From positions 1 through 51,174 of the forward strand of contig CACYSU010000017.1 of the NCBI GenBank assembly GCA_902777205.1: a DNA stretch of 51,174 bases, in the 5' to 3' direction. The stretch's first letter is position 1. The number at the start of each line of letters is the position of its first letter. This stretch comes from an uncultured Rhodospirillales bacterium (GTDB taxonomy: Bacteria; Pseudomonadota; Alphaproteobacteria; CAAGCB01; CAG-977). Both the position numbers and the translations under genes were made by a program. The notes beneath the pieces are model-generated. The model did no database searches, was not told where the DNA came from, and saw only the letters and a program-made list of their open reading frames with translations. Positions 39,675-45,829 of the stretch are shown piece by piece.

Positions 39675-40040
39675 CGGTGCCGGACGATCTGTAAGCCGGG
39701 TTCTGTGATCGGCGATCATTCATCTGCGACGGTTGTTGCCAAACGTCTTTAGCGACCTACCTCTGGCGGGGACGGAAACATCCCGCGATACGAAAAGTAT
39801 GCCTTTCTTGGTCTTGCTTCCGATAGGGCTTGCCGTGCCTTTTCCGTTGCCGGAAAAGCGGTGCGCTCTTACCGCACCATTTCAACCTTGCCTGTCCGAA
39901 GACATCGGCGGAATTTTTTCTGCTGCGCTTTCCCTTGGGTTGCCCCAGCCGGACGTTATCCGGTATCGTGTTTCCGTGAAGCCCGGACTTTCCTCAGTAC
40001 GCACAAAGGCGCACCGCGATCGCCCGATCCTCCGGCACCG
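39675..40040 (-). ncRNA. rnpB: RNase P RNA, type A
   Basis: The - strand contains the universal RNase P core: GAGGAAAGTCCGGGCT near the 5' end (opposite 39980-39995) and ACAGAACCCGGCTTAC near the 3' end (opposite 39689-39704). The ends pair as helix P1: CGGTGCCGGA at the 5' end (opposite 40031-40040) with TCCGGCACCG at the 3' end (opposite 39675-39684), a perfect 10 bp. The RNA is about 366 nt, normal for type A. It is the catalytic subunit for tRNA 5' maturation. Open frames across this stretch are artefacts. Confidence 0.95.
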
Positions 40041-42416: not shown

Positions 42417-42444
42417 ACAGGTATTTGATATGGAAGAAAAGGTT

Positions 42445-42948
42445 ATGCCGACATCGTCCGAACGGCTGTTGGAATATTTGGGCGAATTGGGGATCGAGTA
42501 CGTCAACACCCCGCACGCCGCGGTCTTTACCGCCGAAGAGGGCGAAAAGGTCTGGAAAGGCATCGCGGGGATGCATTGCAAAAACCTGTTTTGCAAAGAC
42601 GCCAAAGGCAAACTGTGGCTGATCGTCGCGCCCGCGATGAAACGCGTCGATCTGAAAACCGTTCCCGCGCGGATCGGGTCGAAACGCCTGTCGTTCGGCA
42701 GCGCGGAATTGTTGTTTGAAACGCTGGGCGTGTTCGGCGGTTCGGTCACGCCCTTTTCCGTCGTCAACGACACGGAAAACCGCGTCACCGTCGTTTTGGA
42801 CAAGGAAATGATGGAACAGGAGAAAATCAATTTCCACCCGCTGGTCAACACGGCGACGACGACCGTCACGCCCGACGGGCTGATGAAATTCCTGCGCGCC
42901 TGCCGCCACGAACCGGTGATCGCCCCCGTGTGCGAAGGCGAAGCTTGA
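42445..42948 (+). CDS. YbaK/ProX-type tRNA deacylase (ProXp-ala-like)
   Basis: The 167-residue single-domain protein matches the YbaK/aaRS-editing superfamily, PrdX/ProXp-ala group: LGELGIEYVNTPHAAVFTAE, GMHCKNLFCKDAKGKLWLIV, KRVDLKTVPARIGSKRLSFG, GVFGGSVTPFSVVNDTENRV and FHPLVNTATTTVTPDGLMKF. Such proteins hydrolyse Ala-tRNA(Pro) or similar mischarged tRNAs. The KNLF and HPL-NT segments are conserved in the group. An in-frame ATG at 42430 is also possible; 42445 has GGAAG upstream. It is divergent from the amidase operon. Its stop TGA is contained in the -35 hexamer of the next promoter. Confidence 0.85.
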   Translation: MPTSSERLLEYLGELGIEYVNTPHAAVFTAEEGEKVWKGIAGMHCKNLFCKDAKGKLWLIVAPAMKRVDLKTVPARIGSKRLSFGSAELLFETLGVFGGSVTPFSVVNDTENRVTVVLDKEMMEQEKINFHPLVNTATTTVTPDGLMKFLRACRHEPVIAPVCEGEA

Positions 42949-42973
42949 CAAACGCGTAAAAATATTACATAAT
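42945..42973 (+). promoter_or_regulatory. Strong sigma-70 promoter before the terminase
   Basis: TTGACA (42945-42950, consensus) and CATAAT (42968-42973, one mismatch) are exactly 17 bp apart. This is the best promoter match in the window. The predicted start is near 42980, only 8 bases before the terminator stem beginning at 42988. The TGA inside TTGACA is the stop codon of the ProXp-like gene. Confidence 0.75.
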
Positions 42974-42979
42974 GTGATA

Positions 42980-43024
42980 TTGTTTCGGGTCTTCGGGGCT
43001 GATTGCTCCGGAGGCCTTTTTTTT
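42980..43024 (+). ncRNA. Predicted short transcript (about 45 nt), sRNA or attenuator
   Basis: The interval runs from the predicted start of the strong promoter to the T-run of the terminator at 42988-43024. The product would be little more than an 8-base 5' end plus a 12-bp hairpin. It could be a decoy or sponge RNA, an attenuated leader controlling the terminase gene 20 bp downstream, or a transcription roadblock. No known RNA family was recognised. The existence of the transcript is inference. Confidence 0.4.
42988..43024 (+). terminator. Intrinsic terminator directly before the terminase
   Basis: GGTCTTCGGGGC (42988-42999) pairs over all 12 positions (three G-U) with GCTCCGGAGGCC (43005-43016) around a TGATT loop, followed by eight T (43017-43024). 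It is a strong rho-independent terminator placed between the promoter at 42945-42973 and the terminase ATG at 43045. Confidence 0.85.
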
Positions 43025-43044
43025 ATGCTTTGAACGGGGGAAAA

Positions 43045-44358
43045 ATGGTCGATATCAAAATACCTTATAAATGGAAGCCCAGAAAATACCAGCTGGATCT
43101 GTGGCGTTATCTGGAAAACGGCGGAAAGCGCGCGGTCGCCGTGTGGCACCGGCGCGCGGGAAAGGACAGCCTGTCCCTGAATTGGACGGCGGTGGCGGCG
43201 ATGCAGCGCGTCGGCGTGTACTGGCATATGCTGCCGCTGCAGACGCAGGCGCGCAAAGTCGTTTGGGACGCGATCGACAAACAGGGCAGGCGCGTGATTG
43301 ATCAGGTGTTTCCGAAAGCGCTGCGCAAATCCGTCAATTCGCAGGAAATGAAAATCGAGCTGCTGAACGGGTCGATCTGGCAATGCGTCGGGTCGGACGG
43401 GTACAATTCGCTGGTCGGGTCGAATCCCGTCGGCGTCGTGTTTTCGGAATATTCGATCGCCGATCCCGCCGCGTGGGACTTTATCCGCCCCATTTTGGCG
43501 GAAAACGGCGGGTGGGCGTTGTTCATCTATACCCCGCGGGGACGCAACCACGGGCTGAAACTGTTTGAAACGGCGCAAAATTCGCCCGATTGGTTCGCGC
43601 AGAAACTGGGCGTTTCGGAAACCAAGGCGATTCCGATGGCCGCGGTGGACGCCGAACGCGCGGCCGGCATGGACGACGGCATCATCGGGCAGGAGTTTTT
43701 CTGTTCTTTCGACGCCGCGCTGAAAGGCAGCTATTACGGAACATTGCTGAACGATCTGGAAAACGGCGGGCGGATCGGGAACGTGCCGTTCAATCCGGTT
43801 TTGCCCGTGACGACCGCGTGGGATTTGGGCGTCGGGGACAGCACGGCGATCTGGTTTTACCAGCAAAACGGCGCGGAGGTGTTCGTCATCGACTATTACG
43901 AATCAAGCGGCGTCGGGTTGGATCATTATGTCAAGGTGCTGAAAAGCAAACCGTACATCTACACCGACGACAACATCTTTCCCCACGACATCCGCGTGCA
44001 TGAACTTTCCAGCGGCAAAAGCCGGCTGGACATTCTGGCGGGGCTGGGGGTGCGCGGCCGCGTTTTGGAACGGGCGAGCGTTGAAAACGGCATCGCCGCC
44101 GTCCGGCTGCTGCTGCCGCGGTGCCGGTTCGACAAGGAAAAATGCGCCAAGGGGTTGGAGGCGCTGCGCCAATACCAGCGGGCGTGGGACGACGCGCGCA
44201 AAGATTTCCAGCCCCGCCCTTTGCACGATTGGACCAGCCACGCGGCGGACGCGTTCCGGTATCTGGCCATGGGGATCAGGGAGCGGGCGCAGGCCATGGA
44301 ACGCCCGTACCGTCAATCGGCGCGGGATTACAGGGATTACGACCCGCTGGCGGATTGA
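43045..44358 (+). CDS. Phage terminase large subunit (solitary, intact)
   Basis: The 437-residue protein is a TerL-type packaging motor. ATPase features are the Walker A variant HRRAGKD (35-41), Walker B around GVVFSEYS (130-137, Ser instead of the usual Asp before the catalytic Glu) and coupling motif TPRG (163-166). The C-terminal RNase H-like nuclease has acidic residues Asp260 and Asp265 in TAWDLGVGDS, Asp283 and Asp402 in HAADAFRY. The ATG at 43045 has GGGGGAAAA upstream; the longer frame overlaps the terminator. No small terminase, portal, capsid or integrase gene is nearby, which is unusual. It may be a relic, a domesticated gene or part of a split gene-transfer system. Composition resembles its neighbours. 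Confidence 0.88.
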   Translation: MVDIKIPYKWKPRKYQLDLWRYLENGGKRAVAVWHRRAGKDSLSLNWTAVAAMQRVGVYWHMLPLQTQARKVVWDAIDKQGRRVIDQVFPKALRKSVNSQEMKIELLNGSIWQCVGSDGYNSLVGSNPVGVVFSEYSIADPAAWDFIRPILAENGGWALFIYTPRGRNHGLKLFETAQNSPDWFAQKLGVSETKAIPMAAVDAERAAGMDDGIIGQEFFCSFDAALKGSYYGTLLNDLENGGRIGNVPFNPVLPVTTAWDLGVGDSTAIWFYQQNGAEVFVIDYYESSGVGLDHYVKVLKSKPYIYTDDNIFPHDIRVHELSSGKSRLDILAGLGVRGRVLERASVENGIAAVRLLLPRCRFDKEKCAKGLEALRQYQRAWDDARKDFQPRPLHDWTSHAADAFRYLAMGIRERAQAMERPYRQSARDYRDYDPLAD

Positions 44359-44439: not shown

Positions 44440-44529
44440 CGTCATTGCGAGGAGTGTAACGACGAAGCAATCGGTTTCATATATATTTTTGGGGATTGCT
44501 TCGCCCGCTGTTGCGGACTCGCAATGACG
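44440..44529. repeat. REP-like imperfect palindrome
   Basis: CGTCATTGCGAG (44440-44451) and CTCGCAATGACG (44518-44529) are exact inverted repeats. Inside, CGAAGCAATC (44463-44472) and GATTGCTTCG (44494-44503) are again exact inverted repeats, giving a 90-bp cruciform-capable element. The same sequence type, known from Rickettsia, Geobacter and others, is a dispersed palindromic repeat. A run of nine C lies just outside at 44407-44415. No gene was found in 44359-44690. Confidence 0.85.
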
Positions 44530-44630
44530 GCCGAGGGGGGATAATGCTTTATAATATATCAATCATCAACCAATCGTCGCTGCGGTTCCGTCGGTGTTTT
44601 CCCGTTTCCGTCGGACGGCCGTTCAAAACA

Positions 44631-44690: not shown

Positions 44691-45332
44691 TCAGCGCGAT
44701 TTGTTGGCCGCGGCTTTTTGCAAAACGATCTGGCGGGCGGCCAGCTGGTGTTCAATCTTGTCCATCGTTTTGGCGGACGGCTGCCACCCGAAGCGGATGC
44801 CGGTCGCTTTGTGGATTTTTTCGGCTCTGTCCAGAACGGCGAAGTTTTTCCGTCCCGTGCGGACGTTGTGCAGATAGGCGTTGATGTCGTCAACGTTGTA
44901 TTGCGACGTGATGCCGATCAGCGTGCGATAGCTTTCGATCAGGTTGTTCGGATTGTGATTCAAATCCTTCAATTCCGGATTCAGCTTTGTCAGTTTGCCG
45001 ATTTCGGCGTTGATTTCCTTCAAAGCGGCGGGGATTTCGGATTTCAGCGTTTCGCCGGCCTGCCGCGTCACGGGATCCTGCGACGCCATAAAGCTGGACG
45101 CGATCGAATATTTCAAAAAGCGTTTGCGGTAATCGTATTCCGCGAAAGCGGCCTCTTTCCCGTCAACGAATTTGTACCGGCCGGCAATGCCCTTTAAACC
45201 GGTTTCATCCTCCATCCTGACGGCGTGGGCGGTATAGCGCGGACGCCCGTCCACCAGATACCTGCCGCCGCGGTCGTAGGCTTTTTCCATATAAGCGGCC
45301 GCTTCTTGAACCGAAGAAAATCTTTCAACCAT
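44691..45332 (-). CDS. Hypothetical protein, 213 residues
   Basis: I do not recognise this family. The product starts MVERFSSVQEAAAYMEKAYD, is soluble with no signal peptide or membrane helix, and has mostly helical, charged sequence with several Asn-rich loops (KDLNHNPNNLIESYRTL). The C-terminus ends AARQIVLQKAAANKSR. The ATG at 45332 has GAAAGGG 9 bases upstream; a TTG six codons earlier is in frame but overlaps that site. A consensus-like promoter precedes it (45362-45390), so it is a real, monocistronic gene. It lies beside the REP-like element and the terminase. Confidence 0.7.
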   Translation of the reverse strand: MVERFSSVQEAAAYMEKAYDRGGRYLVDGRPRYTAHAVRMEDETGLKGIAGRYKFVDGKEAAFAEYDYRKRFLKYSIASSFMASQDPVTRQAGETLKSEIPAALKEINAEIGKLTKLNPELKDLNHNPNNLIESYRTLIGITSQYNVDDINAYLHNVRTGRKNFAVLDRAEKIHKATGIRFGWQPSAKTMDKIEHQLAARQIVLQKAAANKSR

Positions 45333-45361
45333 AATTGTTTGCCCTTTCAAACTTTTTAAGA

Positions 45362-45464: not shown

Positions 45465-45797
45465 TTATTTCGATTTTTTCTTTTTGCCCGTTTTTTTGCG
45501 CATCGCGGCGAATTCGGACAGATCCAGCGAAGCCAGTTTTTCAACGCTGTCCAGAATTTGGGAAATCGTGATGAAATTGATGATTCTGTCCCGAACGGCT
45601 TCGTTGTCTTCGACTTCGTCCAACAGCGGTTTCAACGCCAGAATGTTGTCGTTGCAGAAATGCTGCAGCGCGGCGATGACGGCGGACAATTCCTCTTGGC
45701 TGTCCGGCGAAAACAGATCGGACGGATCGTTTTCCATTTCGATTTCATCGAATTCGTCCTGTTCGGCGGCAAATTTTTCTTCTTTTTTCTTTCCCAT
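45465..45797 (-). CDS. Hypothetical acidic protein with Lys-rich tail, 110 residues
   Basis: I do not recognise this family. The product starts MGKKKEEKFAAEQDEFDEIE, has a very acidic first third, a helical middle (SAVIAALQHFCNDNILALKP) and a basic C-terminal tail with KKTGKKKKSK. No membrane helix or signal peptide is present. The ATG at 45797 has AAAGGA upstream; a TTG seven codons earlier is also in frame. The gene has its own promoter, whose -10 lies in a 17-bp palindrome, and its own terminator. Confidence 0.7.
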   Translation of the reverse strand: MGKKKEEKFAAEQDEFDEIEMENDPSDLFSPDSQEELSAVIAALQHFCNDNILALKPLLDEVEDNEAVRDRIINFITISQILDSVEKLASLDLSEFAAMRKKTGKKKKSK

Positions 45798-45829
45798 GGC
45801 GGCGCGTCCTTTGTTCAAAGTGGAATATG

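Follow-up and report, generated by a model that had tools for sequence, protein, structure and literature searches.

A solitary terminase gene that probably belongs to a domesticated, multi-locus, podovirus-type gene transfer agent in rumen Alphaproteobacteria

An intact gene for the large subunit of a phage terminase (TerL) that stands alone behind a near-consensus promoter and an intrinsic terminator raises the question of what such a gene serves and how it is switched on. In the window (i.e., the whole stretch of 51,174 nucleotides analysed, contig CACYSU010000017.1 of an uncultured Rhodospirillales bacterium), this terL gene occupies positions 43045..44358 of the forward strand and encodes a 437-aa protein matching the terminase large subunit family PHROG 2 (E 3e-26). 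From its ATG at 43045, located 20 bp beyond the T run of the terminator, the frame is open through 44358, and the Walker A (HRRAGKD), Walker B (VVFSE), and nuclease (WDLGVGD, PHD, and ADAFRY) motifs are all intact. The original prediction, made from the window sequence alone, of an apparently functional and solitary TerL was therefore borne out on both points, as the catalytic motifs are complete and no other recognisable phage gene was found near terL within the window; its partner genes were located elsewhere in the genome.

Upstream of terL, a –35 box (TTGACA, 42945..42950, forward strand) is separated by 17 nt from a –10 hexamer (CATAAT, 42968-42973), and this promoter (42945-42973) agrees with the consensus at 11 of 12 positions, in line with the near-consensus promoter of the original prediction. 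The –10 hexamer is spanned by the palindrome ATTACATAATGTGAT (42964..42978, forward strand; family consensus ATAACA-www-TGTkAT), a probable operator or loading site of a shared regulator. The predicted leader transcript of about 45 nt (42980..43024, forward strand; start placed from the position of the –10 hexamer) ends in the T run and folds at –23.5 kcal/mol (z –5.9), with none of 200 shuffles being as stable. Its intrinsic terminator hairpin (42987..43017, forward strand) is followed by eight T up to 43024, so that the hairpin and T8 of the original prediction stood while its 12-bp stem had to be corrected to 13 bp. Simple scans returned 6 promoter-like sites in the region (vs. 2.7 ± 1.5 in shuffles, by consensus counts) and 15 terminator-like sites (vs. 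14.7 ± 3.9); since such strings are common, the case for the terL sites rests on their conservation.

This conservation was evident in the relatives of the window's genome (G000), which are mostly MAGs of rumen Alphaproteobacteria. The hairpin and T run before terL were kept in all nine genomes with readable upstream sequence (i.e., the window and eight relatives), with compensatory changes at 5 of 13 and 3 of 10 stem pairs in two groups of TerL leaders (and at 5 of 11 in the leaders of the particle cluster described below), so that structure rather than sequence is maintained. The –35 box was not recognisable before terL in G004. In three sister species (leaders L029, L031, and L032) the T run is down to 4-5 T, which should make the terminator leakier.

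The promoter overlaps the end of a gene for a YbaK-type aminoacyl-tRNA editing protein (42430..42948, forward strand; PF04073, E 2e-28), whose stop codon (42946-42948) falls within the –35 box. Because that gene ends inside the box, the promoter is not its own. In relatives, too, the YbaK-type gene anchors terL on its upstream side: synteny of the upstream block was seen in four of the six relatives from the same genus, as well as in G008, a member of a third genus, with contig ends hiding the block in the other two same-genus relatives. Upstream of terL, those five genomes carry the YbaK and amidase genes, as well as HAD genes and rnpB where the contig is long enough; within the window, the class A RNase P RNA (39676-40035, reverse strand) marks the same landmark. 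A lack of synteny in close relatives is hereby excluded.

Across 61 genomes searched, terL was found as a single copy in 10 of the 12 genomes of the family, i.e., in all seven genomes of the genus (with 83-87% identity to the window copy in the six relatives) and in three family genomes outside it (76-79% identical). In the remaining two, G010 only carries a TerL copy of about 57-58% identity inside a prophage, and no terL was found in G009. A search for a second TerL copy in G000 returned none. In a phylogenetic tree, the solo TerLs form one clade (support 100/98) separate from phage and prophage TerLs. Outside the family, a class-wide search of 385 genomes yielded only divergent or partial matches. 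One of these, in another family of the class, is a 194-aa piece (G148:C9:229104-229679) that is 68% identical to the window TerL and has no other element gene nearby.

Searching the rest of the genome for the missing partners revealed portal, capsid, and small terminase (TerS) candidates at other loci. A podovirus portal (PF12236) is present in 11 of the 12 family genomes, on contigs other than that of terL, and in nine genomes it resides in a conserved syntenic cluster. In G000 this cluster covers about 8 kb (C13, about 29.3-37.3 kb) and, as annotated by PHROGs and Pfam, holds a roughly 110-aa protein, the portal, scaffold, capsid, tail tubes A and B, and a small internal-protein homologue, followed by a lysis end with a holin-like protein, a lysozyme, a small protein, and an Rz-like spanin. 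The capsid is 80-90% identical among carriers. No integrase, replication gene, TerL, or TerS was found within the cluster. The scaffold gene of G000 includes a run of N, and the G008 contig breaks off behind the portal.

The cluster is flanked by host genes, with ATP synthase, DsbA-like, and tgt genes at one end and, within the genus, a DsbD-like gene at the opposite end. The atp-dsbA-tgt array is present without the cluster in G009 and G010, and these genomes without the element TerL also lack TerS and the scattered fibres. In G003 both the cluster and the neighbouring tgt are missing, so that the absence probably reflects an assembly gap.

Host, particle, and TerL trees were congruent on well-supported groups. 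Nei-Gojobori dN/dS estimates, for which synonymous sites were near saturation, amounted to 0.056 for TerL, 0.042 for MCP, 0.086 for the portal, and 0.08-0.09 for the tail tube, next to 0.044 and 0.049 for the host comparators atpB and tgt (scaffold and lysozyme were left out, as their coding regions were misassigned). Such a value for TerL rules out that this copy is decaying while a full prophage resides elsewhere.

An HK97/RcGTA-type portal (PF04860) was absent from 11 of the 12 genomes, and the HK97-type portal and structural cluster that define Rhodogtaviriformidae/RcGTA-like membership are thus not a property of the element; the sole example in the family (G005:C5:4159-5157) probably belongs to an unrelated prophage. 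Podovirus-type prophages distinct from the element (G001:C8:76164-77621, G002:C60:27731-29185, G003:C23:16787-18325, and G010:C54:77001-97000) were set aside, since most of their genes are only 20-38% identical to those of the element and phage genes surround them. The G010 prophage is closer for two genes, i.e., MCP (52%) and the TerL mentioned above.

The TerS candidate has the size of a GTA TerS (100 aa) and is present in exactly the 10 TerL genomes. Its homology is weak, the alignment being confined to residues 112-195 of a phage TerS of 201 aa (33%, E 3e-4), and its top fold match is likewise a small terminase, weakly. The N-terminal helix-turn-helix (DNA-binding) region is missing, and absence of a DNA-binding domain is a feature proposed for TerS of the GTA type (PMC6854486).

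Each carrier genome furthermore contains one to four scattered genes for T7-type fibres (prophage fibres left out), recognised by a PHROG tail protein (E 2e-34) and by the T7 tail-fibre N-terminus (E 4e-5, just under the cut-off). In G000, the C9 copy looks frameshifted and the C8 copy runs off its contig. At least six element loci were thereby located in G000, i.e., TerL on C17, the cluster on C13, TerS on C24, and fibres on C3, C8, and C9. When one neighbour gene was considered per fibre locus (n = 19), 12 were clear surface-polymer enzymes, 5 were compatible but unspecific, and 2 had no match. The surface-polymer neighbours comprise GT2, GT8, Glyco_trans_1_2, Capsule_synth, a pyruvyl transferase, a CDP-glycerol transferase, and an acyltransferase with NeuB. 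The position of the fibre genes beside surface-glycan clusters suggests glycan-matched delivery, and in RcGTA, too, head-spike genes adjoin co-regulated capsule genes (PMC10218006).

The upstream region of the particle cluster proved to be built like that of terL. A pattern derived from the TerL and cluster leaders (TTGAC, 14-21 nt, ACAwwnTGTkA) was therefore scanned over all 12 family genomes, and retrieved 34 promoter-plus-palindrome sites in the 10 element genomes and none in G009 and G010; the reversed pattern yielded 3 sites over all 12. The 34 sites precede TerL (8), the cluster (8), fibres (12), a gene for a 77-81-aa protein (3), TerS (1), and other genes (2), while a looser palindrome search placed the palindrome directly 5′ of terS in 8 of the 10 genomes. 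TTGAC thus recurs at TerL, cluster, fibre, and TerS loci, at a variable spacing to the palindrome (14-19 nt after TTGACn). A terminator follows this switch in 9/9 TerL, 8/9 cluster, and 11/12 fibre leaders, at about 5-30 nt from the palindrome. No terminator was found at terS or at the 77-81-aa gene, where the palindrome is nevertheless present. The latter gene (L101:4019-4252, L216:4151-4393, L210:1093-1323, and L219:4464-4706) lies near nusB/nrdR/glyA, and its product was found by sequence in 7 of the 12 genomes, plus a likely homologue in G007, all of them element carriers. In G008 only, the switch motif also occurs before a 283-aa ORF with a LysM-like C-terminus (L110, C24:5488).

A search for DUF6456 revealed a candidate regulator pair in 9 of the 10 carrier genomes, in which a Cro/C1-type (XRE) helix-turn-helix protein (HTH_19, E 7e-15) is encoded divergently from a DUF6456 protein of ~150 aa. 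All eight aligned DUF6456 proteins match PF20057 and no other family, by weak matches (best E 4e-6, one above the curated cut-off), and a PDB fold search with the predicted structure gave no match. The palindrome also precedes the DUF6456 gene in two genomes. In G000, which is a MAG, the search did not retrieve the pair (E > 0.01), and a match in G010 was rejected as it looks like an ECF sigma factor by sequence. Homologues of GafA are annotated as DUF6456 (PMC9638019); GafZ, a homologue of the GafA C-terminus, is an antiterminator that requires a promoter palindrome (PMC11150451), and the cI-like RogA represses gafYZ (PMC9632790). By analogy, the XRE protein may act as repressor and the DUF6456 protein as antiterminator. 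On this reading, an antiterminator of the GafZ type would have been taken over for the control of a particle of unrelated descent.

At the Q-dependent late promoters of lambdoid phages and in the AlpA system of Pseudomonas, a factor loaded at the promoter enables read-through of a terminator that lies behind it. No Q or AlpA homologue was identified with the element, whose candidate factor is of the DUF6456 (GafZ) kind. The switch is probably controlled by antitermination, the more economical of two mechanisms and one of the options offered by the original prediction for terL; it is now well supported at the sequence level by the conserved block, its recurrence at cluster and fibres, and the DUF6456 gene in relatives. 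The other mechanism would do without antitermination, with the XRE protein acting through the palindrome to repress every locus and the terminators serving only to damp leak from the repressed promoter. The palindrome indeed covers the –10 region in the manner of a typical dimer site, and the XRE gene is a conserved neighbour of the DUF6456 gene. Moreover, the TerS and 77-81-aa genes have the palindrome without the terminator, so that initiation may be the step at which the palindrome acts, with the terminators perhaps constituting only part of the control. However, a strong terminator 5-30 nt past the palindrome would waste a derepressed promoter unless the polymerase were let through, and a GafZ-type gene is present; repression alone thus appears to us somewhat unlikely.

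Taken together, the sequence evidence strongly argues for a selected, co-regulated, multi-locus particle system, and the window terL probably belongs to a domesticated, podovirus-type GTA that is vertically inherited in this family of rumen Alphaproteobacteria. The features by which GTAs are recognised (PMC9662315) include caudoviricete-derived particle proteins, found here by PHROG/Pfam as portal, MCP, tail tubes, fibre, and TerL, with homology to phage HTVC010P; full endogenisation, often at several loci, as in G000; and vertical inheritance with co-diversification with the host, found here as congruent trees and syntenic sites. With its loci dispersed, the element would not be packageable as one piece. 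The suggestion that TerL could serve a dispersed prophage or a GTA is accordingly well supported by the co-occurrence of TerS and particle genes with TerL, and the element likely moves host DNA between cells.

In the mechanism that we propose for antitermination control of this probable GTA, the Cro/C1-type repressor would keep the divergent DUF6456 (GafZ-like) gene silent. On release, the DUF6456 protein would load at the palindrome-bearing promoters and take RNA polymerase through the terminators, raising the expression of motor, shell, fibres, and lysis genes together. With a TerS that lacks its DNA-binding part, the motor would be able to load heads with host DNA; cell lysis would fall to the lysozyme, spanin, and holin-like genes, and the fibres would deliver the DNA to cells with matching surface glycan. 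As a tentative extension, which we would back with less than even confidence, each glycan cluster might have its own fibre gene under the common antitermination switch, with particles aimed at cells of the same glycan and receptor and ligand genes travelling together.

Alternatively, the particle might be a PBSX-like weapon that packages host DNA, or little DNA at all, and delivers no genes but kills relatives on adsorbing to them, with the fibres setting its kill range. Both the fibre diversity and the position beside surface-glycan clusters would suit a bacteriocin, the cluster yielded no counterpart of the large ejection proteins that T7-type phages carry, and the same doubt has been raised for FpGTA of Faecalibacterium prausnitzii (PMC12946183). 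Nevertheless, the constraint on TerL is as strong as that on the capsid and TerS is kept in all carriers, indicating that packaging matters; no immunity gene was recognised either, and we judge a weapon to be improbable. To our knowledge, podovirus-type particles are not known as tailocins.

The original prediction had also allowed that the promoter makes a tiny abundant RNA. On such a reading, the promoter-terminator unit would exist for a small trans-acting RNA, with TerL downstream by accident, and elements so close together would indeed give a hairpin RNA that is stable and only about 45 nt long. However, leader and loop sequences vary freely across species and loci while only the pairing is kept, and the terL leader has no Rfam match, leaving a functional RNA unsupported and very improbable. 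That the scattered genes are what is left of an old podovirus split by rearrangement is hardly credible, since their spread over several contigs and the lack of integrase and replication genes are outweighed by intact frames, dN/dS values of 0.04-0.09, a co-occurrence that is fixed across 9-10 species and cleanly lacking in two, and one regulatory motif and terminator architecture retained across loci.

Known GTA lineages are few and nearly all long-tailed, and the first podovirus-like one, from a Gram-positive gut bacterium, was reported in 2026. In the literature searched, no such element was described for Alphaproteobacteria, the nearest report being that on this FpGTA (PMC12946183). Set beside it by its description, the present candidate GTA is similarly podovirus-like, with split loci, no replication genes, and a TerS without obvious DNA-binding domain. 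FpGTA differs in its Gram-positive host and in its layout of two operons, one with TerS, TerL, portal, scaffold, and capsid and the other with receptor-binding and lysis genes (vs. at least six loci here, with TerS and TerL outside the main cluster), and no shared promoter-terminator switch has been described for it (PMC12946183).

CcGTA of Caulobacter crescentus (PMC11150451, PMC9632790) is likewise multi-locus and alphaproteobacterial, and its cI-like RogA stands over the GafZ antiterminator, which needs a promoter palindrome to bypass terminators, much as the XRE/DUF6456 pair presumably does here. Its particle, in contrast, is RcGTA-like, with a structural gene set unrelated to the present one. 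The action of GafZ is confined to the main cluster of CcGTA, whereas the present palindrome occurs at every locus type. The GafZ palindrome lies between –35 and –10; the present one lies over the –10 region, with terminators following. Moreover, no counterpart of the DnaA-like GafY of CcGTA was seen with the element. RcGTA of Rhodobacter capsulatus (Rhodogtaviriformidae) shares dispersed loci, a GTA-type TerS, and head-spike genes beside capsule genes (PMC10218006), but has another phage ancestor and one spike/capsule locus, vs. one to four fibre loci here.

The closest whole-particle relative is Pelagibacter phage HTVC010P, with the same gene order and identities of 55% for MCP, 40% for the portal, 32-41% for the tail tube, 38% for TerL, and 36% for the fibre N-terminus. 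HTVC010P differs in being a free phage whose 64 genes share a single 34.9-kb genome, in which TerL and portal are close together. By this comparison, the GTA would be derived from an HTVC010P-like phage. If so, uncultured rumen Alphaproteobacteria would harbour an independent podovirus-type GTA, brought to light by a shared regulatory signature, and this promoter-palindrome-terminator signature could offer a route to other scattered GTAs overlooked by prophage finders. The fibre genes beside glycan clusters provide an unusually direct hypothesis for recipient choice by GTAs, which, if the glycan-matching reading is true, would amount to serotype-matched gene exchange.

Finally, convergent host-type genes (about 490, 1039, and 390 aa), rather than phage genes, lie downstream of terL in most relatives, and this side is rearranged in the window's species. 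Two ORFs 3′ of terL in the window (44691-45350 and 45465-45818) had no family hits and no homologues in the relatives' downstream regions. Immediately 3′ of terL, the window carries one copy of a palindromic repeat (44441-44530; GTCATTGCGAG...CTCGCAATGAC).
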